A DNA stretch of 34,388 nt from a virus: positions 1 to 34,388 of IMG/VR virus record IMGVR_UViG_3300044837_000008. The stretch is one strand, 5' to 3'. The position numbers were made by a program, and so were the translations under genes. A model generated the notes under the pieces. The model saw only the letters and a program-made list of their open reading frames with translations, searched no databases and was not told where the DNA came from. Shown here one piece after another: positions 16,641 to 34,388 of the stretch; position 1 is the stretch's first letter; each line of letters begins with the position of its first letter.

Positions 16641-16778
16641 TTCATTATCGTATTCCATATCTTTATACCATACCATTCTAATCAATCCAAGATCAAGGCA
16701 TAGAATAAAGCCAAGTTCTTCGTCTTCAGTGTATTCCAATCCGAAACATAATCCCTGGATCCAGCCGAAAGTTAGCAT
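16638..16778 (-). CDS. Small hypothetical protein (46 aa), coupled to ribonucleotide reductase
   Basis: ATG 16778 overlaps the reductase stop codon (TAATG on the minus strand), and the frame runs 46 codons to TAA at 16640-16638, touching the shared terminator. The sequence begins MLTFGWIQGLCFGLEYTEDE and ends acidic (MEYDNE). It has alternating hydrophobic and aromatic residues but no clear transmembrane helix. Short Gly/aromatic proteins of this kind are common in phage early operons. Translational coupling and correct fit up to the terminator argue that it is real. Function unknown. Confidence 0.65.
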   Translation of the reverse strand: MLTFGWIQGLCFGLEYTEDEELGFILCLDLGLIRMVWYKDMEYDNE

Positions 16779-18670
16779 TACAAGATTTCACAAGAGTTTC
16801 CGCTACACGCGAATTCCTGCGCTCCGTTAGTTGTATCTTCATCTGTCTCATACTTGTCGAAGTCTACCCACGGTACGGCTGGGAAGGCATCTCGAAGTTT
16901 ATTGTATTCTGATTCAGATAGATCCTGGTACGGCGCTTGCTGATAAACATGCTCGCTATGCGGAAGGAAAGATACTCCACCAATATCATCAAGATGTTTG
17001 TATACCCATGCACCAACTTCCAACCATTCGTGTTCCTTTACGTAGACTGTGATAGAAGGATTATGCTCACACCAATGGCGCTTGAAAGTAAGATAATGAT
17101 CCAACTGATCCAACGCGCCGCGATCTGATCTATGTACGGAGCCTTTGGGAGCAGCCACGGGGAAAGAAAACACCAAATTACTATTGTTGGTAACATCCAC
17201 TTCATATGGAACTCCTTTCTCCTGCATGAATACTGCGAGAGGATCTTTTACGTCAGCCCGAACAGTACGTATATAAAAGGGATTATGACGCGGGTGAATG
17301 CCACTTGCAGAATCCACAAGCTGACTAACGGTCCCGCTAGGCTTAACAGTAGTAATAGCAGCAGAAGGATTAATGCCCAACCTCCCTGCCCATTCTTCGT
17401 TTGCCAGAATGCTTTCATTCTTGAGAGCATCTAAAAGTTCACCCAGATTAGAATCCCCCAAGTTAGAGTCCCCACTACCATTAAGAAGAGGGCTATCCAT
17501 GATACCAGTAAGAGACACTCCAAGTAGTCGCTCTTCTTCAGCATTTACCCTCCACTGTTTTCGGATGTATCGGAAGTCCGTGAGGGTGCTCTGGAATGTA
17601 CCAAGTACACTAGCAATTCTAACCTTTCGGAGTAGTGTTTCTCTATCGTCCGTAGCTCGAACAACAACTTCTGTAAGGTTGCAAAATCCGAAGGGTCGAA
17701 GGATGATTTCGCCGCAGGGATTGGTGCCAAATTCGTGATCGATATCCCGGCGTCCCGAAGATTCCGCTTGCTTCTTTGCAGACACGCGATTAAAGACGCC
17801 GCGTTCTCCCGACTTACTTTCGTAGAGGGCATGCCATTCCTTCATGAAGATGCCAATATCTGGCTTTTCTGTATAAGCCACGCTGTTATTTGCAAGAGCC
17901 CGTTGTCCACTCTGCTCCCACCAAGCCCCATTCTTTGCGTTACGCATGCGCTCATCCGTAAGGTTACTGAGGCTAATGAGAGCACTGCGCCGGACACCAC
18001 CAACAACGACAACCTGAGCAATCTTGCAGACAAGATCATGACATTCCAGTGAGTTTAGTTTCCTACCTGCGGCCTGTTTAAAGAGTCCGGTGGTAAATCG
18101 GAAAAGGTCGGCCAGAGGATCAGGTCCCGAAGCGCGTCCACCAAACGTTCGGAGTCGTGCACCGGCAGGACGAATTCGAGATAGATCCCATCGTGGCGTC
18201 TTACCGCTATATAGTAAGGCGATGAGCTCTCGAAGGGCGCTTGCCCATCCCTGCTTACTGTCAGAGACAACAATTGTACTTTCGCTGTCATAGAATTTCT
18301 CTGGGACCTCCGGTAGTTTATTAATGTATTGTCGTTCAACCGAGAACCCAACACCTGTGCCGTTCATCAGCACATACATTACCTCATCGAAACACTTCTG
18401 ATCCTGAATGGGAATGTAACTACAGTTGTATCCAGCAATGTTATCCCGAGCCAACGCCTCACCGGCGGTCATTAGGGCTCGCATGGACGGCATCACTTCC
18501 ATCTTGTGGATAGCTTCGTACACATCTTTGTATGGGAACAGATCACCATACTTGTCCCGCCAGAAATTACAATAACGTTCTACTGTTTCACTCCAATGTT
18601 CCCGACGCTTCTTCGCGGGAATCCATCGTGCGTACCGCGACTTATAAACATAATGCTGCAAATCATCCAT
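16778..18670 (-). CDS. nrdJ: Class II (adenosylcobalamin-dependent) ribonucleotide reductase (630 aa)
   Basis: The protein converts ribonucleotides to deoxyribonucleotides for phage DNA synthesis. Visible hallmarks are NCSYIPI with Cys83 (redox-active pair), GTNPCGEI with Cys319 as the thiyl radical site and Glu321 nearby, FCNLTEV with Cys330 as the partner of Cys83, and a C-terminal swinging-arm pair Cys622/Cys627 (CSGNSCEI). The organisation and length resemble monomeric B12-dependent triphosphate reductases such as the Lactobacillus enzyme. No R2-type small subunit or activase is encoded nearby, which fits class II. It needs adenosylcobalamin from the host, but not oxygen. Ribosome binding site GGAG lies about 9 bases upstream of ATG 18670. 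It is the penultimate gene of the leftward operon. Confidence 0.92.
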   Translation of the reverse strand: MDDLQHYVYKSRYARWIPAKKRREHWSETVERYCNFWRDKYGDLFPYKDVYEAIHKMEVMPSMRALMTAGEALARDNIAGYNCSYIPIQDQKCFDEVMYVLMNGTGVGFSVERQYINKLPEVPEKFYDSESTIVVSDSKQGWASALRELIALLYSGKTPRWDLSRIRPAGARLRTFGGRASGPDPLADLFRFTTGLFKQAAGRKLNSLECHDLVCKIAQVVVVGGVRRSALISLSNLTDERMRNAKNGAWWEQSGQRALANNSVAYTEKPDIGIFMKEWHALYESKSGERGVFNRVSAKKQAESSGRRDIDHEFGTNPCGEIILRPFGFCNLTEVVVRATDDRETLLRKVRIASVLGTFQSTLTDFRYIRKQWRVNAEEERLLGVSLTGIMDSPLLNGSGDSNLGDSNLGELLDALKNESILANEEWAGRLGINPSAAITTVKPSGTVSQLVDSASGIHPRHNPFYIRTVRADVKDPLAVFMQEKGVPYEVDVTNNSNLVFSFPVAAPKGSVHRSDRGALDQLDHYLTFKRHWCEHNPSITVYVKEHEWLEVGAWVYKHLDDIGGVSFLPHSEHVYQQAPYQDLSESEYNKLRDAFPAVPWVDFDKYETDEDTTNGAQEFACSGNSCEIL

Positions 18671-19162: not shown

Positions 19163-19322
19163 CACCGAAGTATTCAATCAGTTGGTCATACGTTTCTACC
19201 ACTTGGTCTGCCAAAAACTCAACTAGTTCTTCGCTGGTAATATCCAGTAGTTCAAGGATAGTTAGTTCATCAAGCTGCGCCAGCTTCTCCATCAAATCTT
19301 GCATAGTCATTTCATTAATCAT
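19140..19322 (-). CDS. Hypothetical small acidic protein (60 aa)
   Basis: The frame is open from TTG 19340, with ATG codons at 19322, 19310 and 19304. I use 19322, which overlaps the preceding stop by 8 bases. The protein is highly acidic and helical (ELLDITSEELVEFLADQVVETY, then FGDEIDQED) with pI clearly low. Such acidic small proteins are often host-takeover factors or DNA mimics in phages, but there is no direct evidence for that here. Confidence 0.55.
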   Translation of the reverse strand: MINEMTMQDLMEKLAQLDELTILELLDITSEELVEFLADQVVETYDQLIEYFGDEIDQED

Positions 19323-19611
19323 TGCTTTCTTCGTACTCAATATGTAGTTGTAGTTTTTGAGCTACCAGATGTTCAATCTTGGCACCATAAGAATCTTCCC
19401 ATCCCTTGAGCATCAACATGGCATCACACGTAGAAACCAATTGGATATCTTCAAGGATACAAGGAAGCCATGAGGCATTTGGATCAGGATTGTGTTCAGC
19501 TGGACTGATAACCTCATGACCACGATTACGGAGGTCTGTGGTAGCATACTTAAATGCAGGGAAGTTTAGATCATCATAGCCCGTCATGGGACCAGATACA
19601 TACCATTTCAT
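19315..19611 (-). CDS. DUF4406 protein, nucleoside deoxyribosyltransferase-like (98 aa)
   Basis: The N-terminus MKWYVSGPMTGYDDLNFPAF, followed by RNRGHEVISPAE, is the conserved signature of DUF4406, a Rossmann-like family related to nucleoside 2-deoxyribosyltransferases. The conserved mid-section LEDIQLVSTCDAMLML with a carboxylate-rich region and WEDSYGAKIEH matches the family's second half (equivalent to DxxxVxxxD and GxGxE). It may exchange or process bases in nucleosides or nucleotides; the catalytic activity is not proven for most phage members. Its start overlaps the upstream MazZ-like gene by 4 bases (ATGA), which supports a joint nucleotide-metabolism role. Confidence 0.85.
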   Translation of the reverse strand: MKWYVSGPMTGYDDLNFPAFKYATTDLRNRGHEVISPAEHNPDPNASWLPCILEDIQLVSTCDAMLMLKGWEDSYGAKIEHLVAQKLQLHIEYEESND

Positions 19612-19943
19612 TTCGGTGCCTTATATAGATCATCAAGATCAGGTCGAGTCTTCATCATGTTACTAAGAAACATCCAGCAACAGCCAACGTGATCGATATG
19701 AGGAAGACCAGACTCTGTGTCAACATACTCACCGCGAAGTATTGCGAAAGTATGCCGGAGAAGAGCGGCAGTAAGGCGGCTATAGCTAATGCCACCGCGC
19801 CAATTGTGGGATGCATATTTCTGTGCTCCAAATTGAAGTACCGCAGCTAAGCCCTCAAGGGCCACAGGATCAAGTAGATCAAGAGGCAACTTATCCTGAT
19901 CATCCTTACGTCCAGCAAGTAGTTCTTGTTCTTTAATTCCCAT
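19608..19943 (-). CDS. MazZ-like dATP/dGTP pyrophosphohydrolase (DUF5664 family, 111 aa)
   Basis: I set the start at ATG 19943 (11-base overlap with the upstream gene); a longer frame to 20003 exists but would overlap by 71 bases and add non-conserved residues. The core runs KLPLDLLDPVALEGLA, AQKYASHNWRGG, RHTFAILRGEYVDTESGLPHIDH. This is the pattern of the dATP/dGTP diphosphohydrolase family related to MazG/MazZ all-helical NTP pyrophosphatases; Glu and Asp residues in helices and the HIDH motif bind metal. It would hydrolyse purine dNTPs to monophosphate and pyrophosphate, shaping the dNTP pool. Neighbours are DUF4406, RNR and other DNA-metabolism genes. Confidence 0.8.
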   Translation of the reverse strand: MGIKEQELLAGRKDDQDKLPLDLLDPVALEGLAAVLQFGAQKYASHNWRGGISYSRLTAALLRHTFAILRGEYVDTESGLPHIDHVGCCWMFLSNMMKTRPDLDDLYKAPK

Positions 19944-20142
19944 ATACCGTCCCAGGGTCCACAGATTTATCGGTGGTAACTTCAAGTCGTGCCAGTCGAT
20001 CATGTAGGTCTACGATTGCTTCGGCCAGGATGTGAAACGTACTTGTGTTGGCATGCTGCCATTCATTCAGGGTACCAGACATGATTGCCTTCTCGGAACC
20101 CCGAATCAACATCCTCAATTCACTGTAATTAATTTCGTTCAT
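19933..20142 (-). CDS. Hypothetical small protein (69 aa)
   Basis: ATG 20142 overlaps the upstream stop TGA in ATGA form. The product is mostly helical (YSELRMLIRGSEKAIMSG, then AEAIVDLHDRLARLE) and resembles small helical phage proteins of unknown function, with a coiled-coil-like end. It overlaps the MazZ-like start by 11 bases. No catalytic motif is visible. Confidence 0.65.
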   Translation of the reverse strand: MNEINYSELRMLIRGSEKAIMSGTLNEWQHANTSTFHILAEAIVDLHDRLARLEVTTDKSVDPGTVYGN

Positions 20143-27458: not shown

Positions 27459-27792
27459 CTGGATTCACCGCCCTTGCTCCTTTGTTTCGTTCGAGGGCTT
27501 TTGCACAGTGATTCTCCTGAAAGATTGCAAGGAACGAACACATACGACAACCCCAACCCCAGTATGGTTGGACCGGTTTACCCTGTTCATAGGCCATAGC
27601 CTTGCTAGAACGGCTTGAGATCGTCTCGTCAGGGTCCCCTAGGCATAGGGTATTAACCAAGCAGTCCAACGTCACCAGGACGTTTTTAACGTACCCGTCA
27701 TCCGGGGAGTATTTGTACAACCCGAGGGGTGCCTTGACCATCCGTGCAACTGCGATGGCGATATTACTGAAATATAGTTTTACACTATTCAA
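27451..27792 (-). CDS. Hypothetical phage protein of an ill-defined small family (113 aa)
   Basis: The start is TTG 27792, which overlaps the protease stop (TTGA). The sequence shows LVTLDCLVNTLCLGDPDETISSR and YWGWGCRMCSFLA followed by ENHCAKALERN. I recall similar phage proteins in which a motif with GGDxxETLSSR is followed by W and a terminal HC motif; they have no experimentally known role. The Cys residues could bind metal, but only in part. It resembles genes often seen in lysis or accessory regions of phages. Confidence 0.65.
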   Translation of the reverse strand: MNSVKLYFSNIAIAVARMVKAPLGLYKYSPDDGYVKNVLVTLDCLVNTLCLGDPDETISSRSSKAMAYEQGKPVQPYWGWGCRMCSFLAIFQENHCAKALERNKGARAVNPDA

Positions 27793-28496
27793 TTAAGTTT
27801 CTCCAGTTCAGTAATTGGGGTCAGGAATGCCAGATCAAATACTTGTCCATTTACTTCCTTTGCCATCAGCGTTTCAGCTACTCCCATGACGCACCCCGTG
27901 GCTGCATCGATAGCCGGACCACCGCTATTCCCAGGCATAAGGGCACCATCCAGTTGAATGAAGTGGCCGAAAGTGCTCCTAACAGCATCATCCAAATTCC
28001 GATCTGGATTAGAGACTTTACCGAAGCTAATCGTAGAAGTGAACGCAAGGGGACCACCAATCAGGTTAAGTGACTCACCATAATACGGTTTAAACGTACA
28101 TACAGACAGTCCAGTGGGCCACTTGATAGCTGCCTGTGTCTGGGTATCAGTTGTGAGTGTCATCAGGTCTGGGCCTTGTAGAAGCTCACTATCTCCCCGC
28201 TTCTGTACATGGAAGATTCGAACCGTTTCATCTCCTTCAAACAGAACAGCTACCGGTTGAACTACATCCTGTGCTTCCACACAGTGTGCTGCTGTTACAA
28301 TCGTATGGGTTCCTTTCAAAATCCAACCACTACAGTAATCCCCACCAAGGGTCTGAATAGCTACCACGTTACCCAGCTGTTGTTCTAGGGTGGGTGGAGT
28401 AACAACGTTAGGACTTTCTGCGTAGGCATGTACACCCAGTGCTGCAATGATTGCAAATGCCAGCGCCCCGAGCGCTGACCCGATCTTAGTAAACAT
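27789..28496 (-). CDS. Secreted trypsin-like serine protease (235 aa)
   Basis: The catalytic triad is complete: His71 in VTAAHCVE, Asp110 in QGPDLMTL and Ser191 in MPGNSGGPAI. The N-terminus has a basic start, a hydrophobic core (LGALAFAIIAALG) and HAYA-E, so a Sec signal peptide with cleavage after residue ~26 is likely. Three or four Cys residues (55, 72, 133, 202) could form disulfides typical of the periplasm. It would cleave peptide bonds in the periplasm or outside the cell. The family is unusual for a phage. It sits in the leftward (early) block between primase-linked small genes and the helicase, not among lysis genes. Function could be superinfection exclusion or host envelope protein cleavage; both are inference. 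Confidence 0.88.
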   Translation of the reverse strand: MFTKIGSALGALAFAIIAALGVHAYAESPNVVTPPTLEQQLGNVVAIQTLGGDYCSGWILKGTHTIVTAAHCVEAQDVVQPVAVLFEGDETVRIFHVQKRGDSELLQGPDLMTLTTDTQTQAAIKWPTGLSVCTFKPYYGESLNLIGGPLAFTSTISFGKVSNPDRNLDDAVRSTFGHFIQLDGALMPGNSGGPAIDAATGCVMGVAETLMAKEVNGQVFDLAFLTPITELEKLN

Positions 28497-29738: not shown

Positions 29739-30043
29739 TATTTCCTCCGCTTCTGGCCGCCACCATTCTTGGGAACGATGATATCAACTACCATTACATC
29801 AGGAATGTCAACCATATACTGGTTAACATCTTCACTGTAGCCTGTGGGAACTGTATTGCGCTTGATACTCTGCACATTGGTCGCCGCTGCGCGGCTGGCC
29901 TTGTTAATAACATCTTGTGTTGTTTGTCGCAACTTCTGTACCTCCGGACACTTGCAGTTAGGATTCTCACAGGACTTATTTGACATCCACGTCAGTCGAT
30001 CCATCGTGACGTGACATTCTTTACAGGTCAGTTTCACAGTCAT
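29738..30043 (-). CDS. Zinc-ribbon-like small protein (101 aa)
   Basis: I place the start at ATG 30043, 23 bases inside the preceding gene, because the longer open frame to 30217 would overlap an evident Zn-ribbon gene by almost 200 bases. The N-terminus MTVKLTCKECHVTMDRLTW plus CENPNCKCPE gives a Cys pattern C-x2-C ... C-x4-C-x-C, likely a zinc knuckle. A helical middle and a C-terminal half rich in Val/Asp (YMVDIPDVMVVDIIV) follow. Function unknown; it couples to primase by overlap and may bind DNA or RNA. Confidence 0.7.
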   Translation of the reverse strand: MTVKLTCKECHVTMDRLTWMSNKSCENPNCKCPEVQKLRQTTQDVINKASRAAATNVQSIKRNTVPTGYSEDVNQYMVDIPDVMVVDIIVPKNGGGQKRRK

Positions 30044-30248
30044 TGCAGTCCGTTCCGAGATATTGTTGATAGTCTTCTCCTTCATCCCCATCGAATTCGG
30101 AGGGAAAGTCTCCCTCTTCAATGTCTGGAATGTCGTCGGCGACGGTCTTAAAGCAACCATTACATAAATCAACAAAGCCACCGCTACTAGAATATTTACG
30201 GACGGACTCACGATCATTCAACCTTTTGTCACAAGCTAAGCAACGCAT
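30021..30248 (-). CDS. Zinc-ribbon small phage protein (75 aa)
   Basis: MRCLACDKRLNDRES is followed by GGFVDLCNGCFKT, giving C-x2-C ... C-x2-C, a classical rubredoxin/zinc-ribbon knuckle pair. I recognise this as a common small phage protein found in early operons (MRCxACNxxLxDRE ... DLCxxC). The C-terminal half is very acidic (DIPDIEEGDFPSEFDGDEG). It probably binds a host or phage protein or nucleic acid. The activity is unknown. Confidence 0.78.
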   Translation of the reverse strand: MRCLACDKRLNDRESVRKYSSSGGFVDLCNGCFKTVADDIPDIEEGDFPSEFDGDEGEDYQQYLGTDCNDCETDL

Positions 30249-30265: not shown

Positions 30266-30778
30266 TTACCGAGCCCGCCGGCGGGCCGGAGCGGGGGGTA
30301 CAGCAGCAGCACGTTGCAGCGCAGCTTGATCACGTTCCCGCAAAATACGTTGAGCCATTTCTTGCATCTGCCGTTCCTGGAGAACCATTCGAGGTGGAGC
30401 TGGTTGCTCATCCAAGATAGCAAAGAAGTCAGAATCATAGGTGGACTTCTTAACTTCCGCTTTCTTCACGGAGGAAAGTTTGACTCCTTCGGGTAAGACT
30501 TCGAGAATACAATCATCCTCAACCAGCTTATCCGGGAAGTTTCTTGCGTGGTCATTGAAGTACAAGATACTACCAGACAACGGACTCTTAACCGGACGGA
30601 GCCCATCGTTTGTTTCGATCACCAGCAGAGGACCACCCTTCTTCACATTCCGGGTATCCGCTTGCATCACATGGAAGCATTCACCCATACGATCTTCAAT
30701 GAATCGCCGAGCGAAGCCAATCTTGACTCGACCATCTTCGGCCTTGTCAATCCACAGATCACCAATAAATTCTTTCAT
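30266..30778 (-). CDS. GcvH-like (lipoyl/biotinyl-type) domain protein lacking the attachment lysine (170 aa)
   Basis: Residues 6-100 align with glycine cleavage H protein: GDLWIDKAEDGRVKIGFARR (strand pair and IG), MGECFHVMQAD, VKKGGPLLVIET, KSPLSGSILYFND and PDKLVEDDCILEVLPEG correspond to its conserved order (G-x-x-L ... ES-x-K ... P-x-S-G ... N-x-x-L-x-x-x-P). At the lipoyl-lysine position (eight residues before Pro66) stands Asp58, so lipoylation at the canonical site is not expected. The C-terminal ~60 residues are a charged helix (QERQMQEMAQRILRERDQA) and a Pro/Ala/Arg tail. It follows the ATP-grasp/GATase/amidoligase cluster and could be a protein carrier, scaffold or substrate. It may also be a simple structural domain. 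Confidence 0.65.
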   Translation of the reverse strand: MKEFIGDLWIDKAEDGRVKIGFARRFIEDRMGECFHVMQADTRNVKKGGPLLVIETNDGLRPVKSPLSGSILYFNDHARNFPDKLVEDDCILEVLPEGVKLSSVKKAEVKKSTYDSDFFAILDEQPAPPRMVLQERQMQEMAQRILRERDQAALQRAAAVPPAPARRRAR

Positions 30779-30921
30779 TCTATTTCCTTTGCTTGATAAG
30801 CAAGCGTATATTCCATAGGAAAATATTCATAATCTTCCATATACTGTAAAGCATGTTCTTGTAATCGAAATACAGCCAGGACTTCTCTTGTCTCTGTATT
30901 AAGTACTAGCCATCGTCCCAT
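30775..30921 (-). CDS. Small hypothetical protein (48 aa)
   Basis: ATG 30921 lies inside the 3' end of the ATP-grasp gene (23-base overlap), and TGA 30777-30775 overlaps the next ATG by 4 bases. The sequence begins MGRWLVLNTETREVLAVF and ends YTLAYQAKEIE, with beta strands and a helix. It occupies the space between ATP-grasp and H-like genes and is coupled to the latter; it could be a small partner. Function unknown. Confidence 0.7.
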   Translation of the reverse strand: MGRWLVLNTETREVLAVFRLQEHALQYMEDYEYFPMEYTLAYQAKEIE

Positions 30922-31687
30922 TACCAAGCCCCTTTACAAAAGCCTCTGCGTATTTATCCACCGTCGATCCCTCAAGACCGGGGGCAGTGTTGACTTCCAA
31001 ACAATACACTTCGTTCCGTTTTGCATTATAAATGAGGTCAACCGCACCAAAGTCAAGCCCGAGTTCACCCACCACTCGTTGAGCCATTTGTCGCAACCCT
31101 TCAGGCTCGGTGATGTTCTCACGACAATAGACCCATCCGGTTTGATGATTACGTACCTGAAAGTTTGTTGCAAAATCTTCCGGTAATTCTTTGCGCTTTC
31201 TCTTTTCTTGTACATCGATCACTTCTCCAAACGCGACGTGGACTCGGAACTCTTGTTGCTTCTTCACATATTTAACATAAAGTGGGGCCACTGGCATAGT
31301 AGTCGTACCACTAACCAACTCGATCCCATCGCCACTATGGCCAGACAGCTTATGACGAACCACAACATCAACTCTCTCATCATTAAGCCACGTCTCCGCT
31401 CTCTCTCTATCGGTTGTAAACTCTGGAATTCGGATACCCTCTTTGCCCTCCAAGGCACGGAAAGTACTAAGCTTGTTACTAGCTGTTGCTACCGCAGCGA
31501 ACGAATTGCTAACGCTGCTAAAAGGACCAGTCCCCACAGGGGGACGTCCATTCCCCCAATTGATAAGTCGAGTCCAAGGACGGACCACAAACGTTGGATT
31601 AGGACGGTCATTGAAGAGTCGTCTTACCCGGTAGGACAATGACAGCCCGAGCTTCTCCGTTAACAACCGCGCTGACTGACTCCCCAT
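30899..31687 (-). CDS. ATP-grasp ligase, RimK-like (262 aa)
   Basis: I choose ATG 31687, which overlaps the GATase gene by 80 bases; the region around it (MGSQSARLLTEKLG ... INWG) has the pattern of phage ATP-grasp starts. Core motifs include INWGNGRPPV, ATP-binding VVVRHKLSGHSGDGIELV with a glycine-rich loop, YVKYVKKQQEFRVHVAFG, and the metal-binding end GAVDLIYN ... VYCLEVNTAPGLEGS, in which Asp, Glu and Asn ligate Mg-ATP. RimK-type enzymes join a carboxylate to an amine via acyl phosphate. Substrate unknown. In context with a glutamine-synthetase-fold ligase and an NTN-fold amidotransferase it suggests formation of amide bonds on a small molecule, peptide or protein. Confidence 0.87.
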   Translation of the reverse strand: MGSQSARLLTEKLGLSLSYRVRRLFNDRPNPTFVVRPWTRLINWGNGRPPVGTGPFSSVSNSFAAVATASNKLSTFRALEGKEGIRIPEFTTDRERAETWLNDERVDVVVRHKLSGHSGDGIELVSGTTTMPVAPLYVKYVKKQQEFRVHVAFGEVIDVQEKRKRKELPEDFATNFQVRNHQTGWVYCRENITEPEGLRQMAQRVVGELGLDFGAVDLIYNAKRNEVYCLEVNTAPGLEGSTVDKYAEAFVKGLGNGTMAST

Positions 31688-33236
31688 CTTGTACGGTAGC
31701 AAGACGACGGGACGCCGCAACGTGCCTCGCGTTTTCAATTGCGACTTTTGTGTTGCGGTGACGGGCTTTGAAGATTTCACGAACACTCTCCGTGGTGATT
31801 TTGGTTGCTACACATGAAGGGCAAAACAACTCAATACCATTCATGGGCTTTTCTTTCTTTGGATCTACAATACCTACGTGCTTCACGCCGCAGAAAGGCT
31901 TTTCCCATGCTTCCACAACACGATTACAGTCAGCACACTGGCAATGGTTCTTTGCAAAATCCCAATACATAACGGGGATTTCCTTACTGTGTACCTTGGT
32001 GTAGGTCGCAAGGCGGGTATCGCGTACATGGATGGTCCAACCCCCCATCGTCTTTGTGGTGTACTGGACCTTCGCGACACATACCTTATCGAGCCATTCG
32101 GCCATGTTCTGAGGCTGTACTTCCATTGGAAGAAAGCCTTGTACATCAAGACGTTCCAACTCGGGGGTAAAGATGAGTCCTTGATATCGAAATCGATTGT
32201 TCAACATCCGGGTAGTGGACATTACCTTGACCAATACCGTATCGTTACGATTGAAGTTCTCATTGTAACTCTGAATACCCGTAGCTCGTGCTTCTGCAAT
32301 CTCCTCGTCAGAAGGCGTCTTGGTGATGACGCCTGCGGCGGTTAGCGCACAACTGTTCAAATGCGCCGTCGAACTCGTCTCCTTTCTCTGAGCGGCCTTT
32401 GTGAGTGCGTCCTTTAGGGTGTCCGTCTGGGCCGATCCCCCGCCCTTCGGAAAAACTACACCATCCTCATCAACAGAGGTAGCCAGAACCCGCCTCGCGC
32501 GGGTCTTCCATGCTTCGTATTCCCAGTCGTCGTTTTTTTGGCTCGTGAGGTCCACCTTTTCCTTTGTAAAGGTACCTTCGGGAGTAAACACAAATACTTC
32601 ACCCGGTTCCACCACGATATTCTCTGTAACCTTGATGTTCTTACGAGCGGACAACATACCACCAATCCATGCTTCACTGGATAGGATATAGAAATCATCC
32701 GTTACCAGAATGTTCATCGGACGTTCTTCATTCCGTGAAACATACAGACGATCTGCCTCGGTGTCATACCACACCAGCGCAAATGCCCCATCAATCTTGG
32801 GCAATACTTCGGCATAGCTGGACTTAGCCAATGCGTGAGCGATTGCATGGCTATCCACATCCGTCTTTACATCCGACAACTTATCTTCATTGCGAATGGT
32901 GCCGTTGTGGACAAGAATGATCTTGTCTTCCACGAACGGATGGGCATTGTCGGTATTGACCGTGCCACGAGTTGCCGCACGATTGTGGCCAATCACGAAC
33001 TTACTACGTTGAATCATCTGATTACGGAAATCAGACCATTCCTTAGTACGGAACAGGTTCAGAGGGTGGGAACCATGTTTGATGATTCGTACATCACCAT
33101 TACGGAACCGAGTGAATACCCCTGTGGAATCTTTACCCCGCAGAGTATCCACAAGCAGCATGTCTTCGTAAAGATCAGCCGCTTGGAAGTTAAACCCAGC
33201 CGGGCGTCGAGCGATAAGGCCTACAATTCCGCACAT
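31608..33236 (-). CDS. Class II glutamine amidotransferase with C-terminal zinc ribbon (542 aa)
   Basis: After Met removal the catalytic Cys2 (MCGIVGL) is N-terminal. GHNRAATRG, HPFVEDKIILVHNGTI and DVDSHAIAHAL are the GlmS/PurF/asparagine-synthetase signatures (Arg, Asn, Gly oxyanion, Asp for Gln binding), spanning residues 1-210. It would release ammonia from glutamine. Residues ~230-420 are a long variable domain with no synthase motifs that I recognise. Residues 430-475 have a zinc ribbon: Cys434/Cys437 in QCADC and Cys472/Cys475 in FCPSC. The ending is GEARAVIVLPGKTTLQ. No sugar isomerase or PRTase domain follows, so ammonia or glutamyl groups must pass to a neighbour ligase. Start ATG 33236 lies one base after the upstream stop. 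Confidence 0.9.
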   Translation of the reverse strand: MCGIVGLIARRPAGFNFQAADLYEDMLLVDTLRGKDSTGVFTRFRNGDVRIIKHGSHPLNLFRTKEWSDFRNQMIQRSKFVIGHNRAATRGTVNTDNAHPFVEDKIILVHNGTIRNEDKLSDVKTDVDSHAIAHALAKSSYAEVLPKIDGAFALVWYDTEADRLYVSRNEERPMNILVTDDFYILSSEAWIGGMLSARKNIKVTENIVVEPGEVFVFTPEGTFTKEKVDLTSQKNDDWEYEAWKTRARRVLATSVDEDGVVFPKGGGSAQTDTLKDALTKAAQRKETSSTAHLNSCALTAAGVITKTPSDEEIAEARATGIQSYNENFNRNDTVLVKVMSTTRMLNNRFRYQGLIFTPELERLDVQGFLPMEVQPQNMAEWLDKVCVAKVQYTTKTMGGWTIHVRDTRLATYTKVHSKEIPVMYWDFAKNHCQCADCNRVVEAWEKPFCGVKHVGIVDPKKEKPMNGIELFCPSCVATKITTESVREIFKARHRNTKVAIENARHVAASRRLATVQDGESVSAVVNGEARAVIVLPGKTTLQ

Positions 33237-33237
33237 A

Positions 33238-34131
33238 TTATACTGCTCCCAAATAAAGAGACTTCTTAGAAACTTGCTTAAGCAGAGTTATGTTAGTTGC
33301 CGGGTTGAGGAATGCCTGCTTAACAACATTCACCGACCGTTCGAGATCACGATACGATTCATACTTCAACTGCATGGCATCATCCGAGCCAAAGATGGTG
33401 ATTAGCAATTGTTGATAGTCCGTCATCCCATGCAATTCCAGAAGAAGGCGACGAATATCAGTGGTCGAATTACGATTACAATAGTCAATCAACTTGGTCC
33501 ACAAACGAATCCAGATGGATACCTTACGATGATCGAACGTACCGTGCATATGCCGAGCTTCAATCGTACCCAACTCACGCAAGGGCAGGATGTTCAGACC
33601 TGTGTACTTGGACCATGTTTCCACAACACTACCAAAGGGGTTACTGCACATCCCAGTAATAAGGTTAGTATCCATCAACGGCACGCAGTAAATATTCTTG
33701 ATACGACCACGTCCAGTGAACTTATAGAACAATGGTTCGAACAAGGTGTACATCAATACAATATCCACCACCTTTGCTGCTTCCAGCTTCTGTACATTGA
33801 AGTGCACATGGATGGACGTACGTGGACTGAAGCAACATCCTTTGGAGATGCTATCCACCAACAGATCCTTCAATGCATGGGGAGCCCACCGCGCCTGAAT
33901 GGGATGAGTAATCCATTCCACTCCATTGTTACGCAGCGAACCATCGCCCTTCATTACCCACACAGGTTGGGCACGACGTTCTACTTCATGGTTCTCGACT
34001 TCAACTTCAATACCAACTTCGATATCACTGTCGACAGTTTCAACCAGACCAGTCATACCCTTATAGTACTGGCTTGCATCCACCGTATTGACTGGAGACA
34101 TGCCCCAGATTTCAATGATTGATTTAGCCAT
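33238..34131 (-). CDS. Glutamine-synthetase-fold amidoligase (297 aa)
   Basis: Residues ~36-110 contain DSDIEVGIEVEVEN (metal-binding Glu pair, as in the G-x-E-x-E motif of amidoligases), VMKGDGSLRNNGVEW (loop with Asp-Gly-Ser-Leu), TSIHVHFNVQ (His-x-His metal site), and LGTIEARHMHGT (Glu-x-Arg, substrate/ATP residues). This order matches the COOH-NH2 ligase (amidoligase enzyme) family, with a fold shared with glutamine synthetase. It forms an amide between a carboxylate and an amine using ATP. The gene is followed by GATase and ATP-grasp and preceded by a 57-residue gene with an 8-base overlap. Substrate unknown. Confidence 0.87.
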   Translation of the reverse strand: MAKSIIEIWGMSPVNTVDASQYYKGMTGLVETVDSDIEVGIEVEVENHEVERRAQPVWVMKGDGSLRNNGVEWITHPIQARWAPHALKDLLVDSISKGCCFSPRTSIHVHFNVQKLEAAKVVDIVLMYTLFEPLFYKFTGRGRIKNIYCVPLMDTNLITGMCSNPFGSVVETWSKYTGLNILPLRELGTIEARHMHGTFDHRKVSIWIRLWTKLIDYCNRNSTTDIRRLLLELHGMTDYQQLLITIFGSDDAMQLKYESYRDLERSVNVVKQAFLNPATNITLLKQVSKKSLYLGAV

Positions 34132-34297: not shown

Positions 34298-34388
34298 GAT
34301 GTGAATCCTTGTTGAGTAATGATGTTCTTGTAGCTGGCTTCAATCATCTGAGTTACCTGCCCTTTGGTGTTGATCCGTGCTACCGGAT
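34294..34388 (-). CDS. C-terminal fragment of an upstream gene (right edge)
   Basis: The frame is open from the right edge to TGA 34296-34294, giving about 30 residues (TKGQVTQMIEASYKNIITQQ and GFTS at the end). The stop overlaps the next ATG in ATGA form, which supports that it is a genuine gene. The product cannot be named from such a short end; amphipathic helix character only. Confidence 0.55.
   Translation of the reverse strand, partial: PVARINTKGQVTQMIEASYKNIITQQGFTS

Follow-up and report, generated by a model that had tools for sequence, protein, structure and literature searches.

Why should a phage keep a protein that resembles the H protein of the glycine cleavage system (GcvH), with an aspartate at the position of the lipoyl lysine, next to a set of amide-forming enzymes? 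In H proteins the lipoyl lysine is the attachment point of the cofactor. Amidoligase cassettes are widespread among phages, and a small, well-folding protein linked to the ATP-grasp ligase offers a handle on the product and the target of the cassette. We analyzed the gene within a DNA stretch of 34,388 nucleotides (IMG/VR record IMGVR_UViG_3300044837_000008, positions 1–34,388), referred to as the window. The genes of interest are the following:

30021–30248, minus strand: small CxxC...CxxC protein with an acidic tail, just downstream of the H-like gene and a conserved neighbor of it
30266–30778, minus strand: H-like protein, open for 170 codons over exactly this interval (170 residues; H-fold domain, residues 1–100)
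30899–31786, minus strand: ATP-grasp ligase, predicted to be RimK/LysX-like (phrog_2599, E = 1.9e-68)
31608–33236, minus strand: class-II glutamine amidotransferase with an N-terminal Met-Cys-Gly (Pfam GATase_6, E = 3.8e-17)
33238–34131, minus strand: amidoligase (PF12224, Pfam E = 1.6e-07)

The amidoligase, the class-II amidotransferase (GATase-II) and the ATP-grasp genes are all found together in the window. Complete loci are arranged as COOH-NH2 ligase, a conserved hypothetical protein of about 190 residues, amidoligase, class-II amidotransferase, ATP-grasp, H-like protein and, usually, the small CxxC protein. The window covers this row from the amidoligase onward, and its end at position 34388 precedes the expected position of the COOH-NH2 ligase; H-like loci that extend far enough upstream do have a gene for a type 2 COOH-NH2 ligase. 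The C-terminal extension of the amidotransferase bears two CxxC motifs. The start codon of the ATP-grasp gene is uncertain, as a start at the GTG of position 31786 makes it overlap with the gene upstream. Profile searches of the PDB with the amidoligase and the COOH-NH2 ligase yielded no usable match.

Several further genes were observed along the way. The conserved hypothetical of about 190 residues lies between the COOH-NH2 ligase and the amidoligase in most cassettes (L002:4399-5019, L020:2928-3545 and relatives) and has no match by Pfam or PDB profile. A trypsin-like protease with a hydrophobic N-terminus resembling a signal peptide is encoded among phage replication genes of the window (27789–28496, minus strand; Pfam Trypsin_2, E = 2.6e-14). 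An N-terminal domain of a dATP/dGTP diphosphohydrolase (19608–20003, minus strand; PF18909, E = 1.8e-28) adjoins a DUF4406 protein (19315–19611, minus strand), and signatures of a class-II (B12-type) ribonucleotide reductase are found at 16778–18670 on the minus strand.

The protein encoded at 30266–30778 is a homolog of GcvH. Residues 9–91 match the Pfam family GCV_H (PF01597) with E = 8.1e-05 and a score of 23.0 bits, just above the gathering threshold (22.2). The match spans profile positions 9–90 of 122; positions 91–122 are unmatched by the window protein, and the shorter members of the family have no residues left to fill them. A PDB search with the window sequence alone ranked GcvH first, weakly, with E = 0.046. 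As the single-sequence evidence is marginal in both searches, relatives were needed for the claim of homology. Each of the 12 members scanned matches GCV_H individually, several of them below the gathering cut-off (the protein of locus L064 reached 24.3 bits), so the match of the family is not due to chance. The GcvH model of NCBIfam was assigned to 13 out of 13 H-like proteins of a second set. A profile of the 12 members retrieved solved GcvH chains from the PDB with E = 5.4e-07, and this alignment places Asp58 under the lipoyl lysine and Lys64 under the tyrosine of ESVKAAADVYAP. The H-protein likeness and the order of conserved positions that a preliminary description had read from the sequence are thereby borne out.

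The barrel-sandwich fold anticipated in that description was also recovered by structure prediction. The AlphaFold2 model has block-mean pLDDT values of about 95–97 for residues 1–100, followed by a linker of low confidence and a predicted long helix (residues 129–159); such C-terminal extensions occur in the clade of the window protein only. A Foldseek search with the model matched H proteins with E = 4e-06, and all 22 matches at E ≤ 0.001 were H-protein entries. Superpositions with VIA-align resulted in Z-scores of 11.3–13.5 to H proteins, compared to 7.5 for the best biotinyl or lipoyl domain outside this family, a carboxylase biotin domain. No match to the H-like protein was observed in PHROG, in PADLOC or, at E ≤ 0.001, among the predicted viral structures of BFVD.

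A tblastn search over 50,697 phage records yielded one weak match (E = 9e-3) in Alcaligenes phage vB_Af_QDWS535, where the gene (L002:7989-8273) is unannotated in OK172329.1 and directly follows the ATP-grasp gene of the cassette. The only Pfam match of this protein is GCV_H, with E = 0.052 and a score under the cut-off. Neither the H-like nor the ATP-grasp protein of the window, each used singly, nor a two-sequence alignment of H-like proteins retrieved relatives from viral contigs; larger alignments found them. H-like genes turned up in ten more loci after a scan with a pair of ATP-grasp proteins and profile searches over every open frame of the loci, and queries built from the H-like proteins added further members. 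A genome-contig scan employing only two short patterns found none. The resulting family comprises 15 distinct sequences that cover site 58, namely the window protein, QDWS535 and IMG/VR contigs. Its members are 16–53% identical to the window protein, and the conserved motifs differ between clades. The gene is under purifying selection, with dN = 0.024, dS = 0.293 and dN/dS of about 0.08 for the pair L019/L023.

The consensus lipoylation motif is Ex2Kx10G, as quoted in PMC4518038. In the window protein this register is kept as Glu55-Thr-Asn-Asp58, ten residues and Gly69, with Asp58 replacing the lysine. Site 58 is occupied by Asp in 11 of the 15 sequences and by Glu, Arg, Tyr and Ser in one each; it is acidic in 12 and a lysine in none. 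The loss of the lipoyl lysine, first noted for the window protein, thus extends to the entire family. Glu55 is invariant (15/15), which may have a purely structural reason, and the complete Glu-Thr-Asn-Asp motif is invariant within the clade of the window. The suggestion that Lys64 might be an alternative attachment site was rejected. Within the clade of the window this column holds K/K/K/K/K/P/H, with Lys in 5 of 7 sequences, and in the other members T/T/V/D/T/K/N/N/R; ordered by conservation, it comes only 81st among 94 columns. A search of 25 phage records, including several fragments, for lipoate or biotin ligase domains (BPL/LplA/LipB, PF03099) gave no match.

The association with an amide-forming gene cluster, also part of the preliminary description, was seen in every locus where it could be observed. 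Scans with H-like proteins alone gave 17 loci; an ATP-grasp gene lies just upstream in all 16 that have upstream DNA, and the remaining one (L060) begins inside the gene. The distance between the two genes varies from an overlap of a few bases, seen in 8 of the 16 records compared, up to about 0.5 kb (L019), and in one locus (L025) another open frame separates them. Gene adjacency in phages is in part a matter of simple operon structure.

The reverse relationship is looser. Relatives of the ATP-grasp protein occur in 311 phage records and those of the amidoligase in 199, and an H-like gene is present in 10 of the 29 loci found by the ATP-grasp query. Most cassette phages lack the H-like gene, which is therefore dispensable for the core chemistry. 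In a maximum-likelihood tree of the ATP-grasp proteins the H-like gene is confined to one clade. Its presence requires 2 changes on this tree, some forks of which are weak, versus 12.9 for shuffled labels, a contrast that is inflated by near-copies. A single gain and a single loss would fit the pattern; the two main clades and QDWS535 are deeply diverged, and the gene was probably lost in loci L034 and L043. These two loci still carry the gene for the small CxxC protein. Since this protein also occurs without the H-like gene, it was set aside as an equivalent of LysW. A replacement of the H-like gene by a gamma-glutamylcyclotransferase was likewise considered: this domain is missing from 14 of the 15 records with an H-like gene, but QDWS535 has both. 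As some of these records are only fragments and the loci for comparison were chosen partly for carrying the domain, no rule of replacement follows.

For the ATP-grasp enzyme a RimK/LysX-like fold is predicted. Its profile matches RimK with E = 1e-9, and its AlphaFold2 model (mean pLDDT 93) superimposes with Z = 21.6 on ArgX with LysW and with 20.9 on RimK. The ArgX/LysX and RimK structures span 19.9–21.6, and D-Ala-D-Ala ligases score lower (about 18). Asp232, Glu246 and Asn248 (numbering of the trimmed protein) are invariant in 29 sequences; we take them to be residues of the nucleotide/metal site, the metal role being presumed by analogy to RimK. RimK and LysX/ArgX join amino acids to protein carboxylates, and among the nearest solved folds some ArgX/LysX entries contain LysW and one RimK entry contains its substrate RpsF. 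Because these closest folds act on protein acceptors, a protein partner for the phage enzyme is reasonable; a shared, predicted fold alone does not establish function.

Based on the family analysis and the predicted structures we propose, with about even confidence, that the H-like protein is a dedicated, non-lipoylated docking or targeting subunit of the adjacent RimK/LysX-like ATP-grasp enzyme. An H protein would have been acquired by a phage lineage with the amidoligase cassette, probably once, and would subsequently have lost its lipoyl lysine. The protein would have kept its H fold and the lipoyl-hairpin register, together with the invariant Glu55 and a usually acidic residue at the former lysine site. 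H proteins contact their enzymes through the hairpin face, and the phage protein may bind the ATP-grasp enzyme in the same way. It would thereby position or select the acceptor on which the cassette builds the amide bonds of its putative product, with ammonia presumably provided by the class-II amidotransferase and carboxylates activated by the ligases.

The same hairpin could itself be the acceptor. Here the ATP-grasp enzyme, the amidoligase or both would join an amine or amino acid to the carboxylate of Glu55 or Asp58, modeled on the ligation by ArgX/LysX onto the C-terminal glutamate of LysW, as a lysine-free analogue of a swinging arm. The ligation chemistry of LysX and LysW (PMC4490483) provides a precedent, and the proximity of the ATP-grasp model to ligases solved with LysW or RpsF, the invariant Glu55 and the prevalence of Asp or Glu at site 58 agree with it. 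Against this, the proteins with Arg, Tyr or Ser at site 58 still reside beside the ligase, the C-termini share no common glutamate, and the many cassettes without an H-like gene are evidence against an obligatory carrier; together with the three non-acidic members they weigh against an obligatory covalent one. We therefore regard a carrier or substrate role as possible but doubtful. The specific version, in which the RimK/LysX-like ligase amidates Glu55 or Asp58 and this cofactor-free arm serves the cassette for assembling or delivering a peptide-like group, appears somewhat less probable again.

The preserved fold and lipoylation hairpin without a lysine would also suit an unmodifiable mimic that ties up the lipoyl ligases or the glycine-cleavage enzymes of the infected host. 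This is unlikely, as such a decoy explains neither the strict linkage to the cassette nor the co-inheritance with its ATP-grasp gene, and the low identities and clade-specific motifs also speak against it. Least probable is a passenger or decaying relic with an unrelated phage function, linked to the ligase by operon position only: the patchy distribution, at least one probable loss (L034/L043) and the lack of matching known phage families fit it, but purifying selection, a core conserved over deep divergence and a constant neighbor do not.

The H-like protein would be a case of a cofactor carrier that lost its attachment residue and was retained for another job; probably, the old carrier now serves a pathway that makes peptide bonds, as its partner or its target. 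The cassette itself, comprising COOH-NH2 ligase, amidoligase, GATase-II and ATP-grasp, was reportedly described by Iyer et al. in 2009. The enzyme set of the H-like loci is the same as in phiEco32, LUZ24 and Zobellviridae phages, and only one ATP-grasp clade adds the H-like gene to it. Papers on cassette-bearing phages name the enzymes of the cassette (PMC3890496, PMC3517423, PMC6209634, PMC10580990), and one proposal, cited in PMC10580990, is that it modifies the cell wall to prevent superinfection. We found no H-protein-like gene tied to the cassette in the open-access literature searched, which does not amount to absence from the literature.

Compared to GcvH (PF01597), the phage protein shares the predicted fold of residues 1–100, the sequence profile and the hairpin register E-x2-X-x10-G followed by Pro82. 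In contrast to GcvH, the lipoyl lysine is replaced in every phage member, the profile match stops at position 90 of 122, and the gene resides in a ligase operon without a lipoate ligase. The top Foldseek match of the model is GcvH-L (PDB-entry 5a35) from the operon of LplA2, a macrodomain protein and SirTM (PMC4518038). In that paper, GcvH-L is an H-fold protein and a dedicated target of the enzymes of its own operon, and lipoylation, at Lys56, is required before ADP-ribosylation; none of the phage proteins has a lysine at this site. The second parallel is the pairing of LysW/ArgW with LysX/ArgX. The phage protein differs from LysW by its H fold and by variable C-termini without a shared glutamate, but in the phage, too, the gene of a small protein lies beside that of an ATP-grasp enzyme with a predicted RimK fold.
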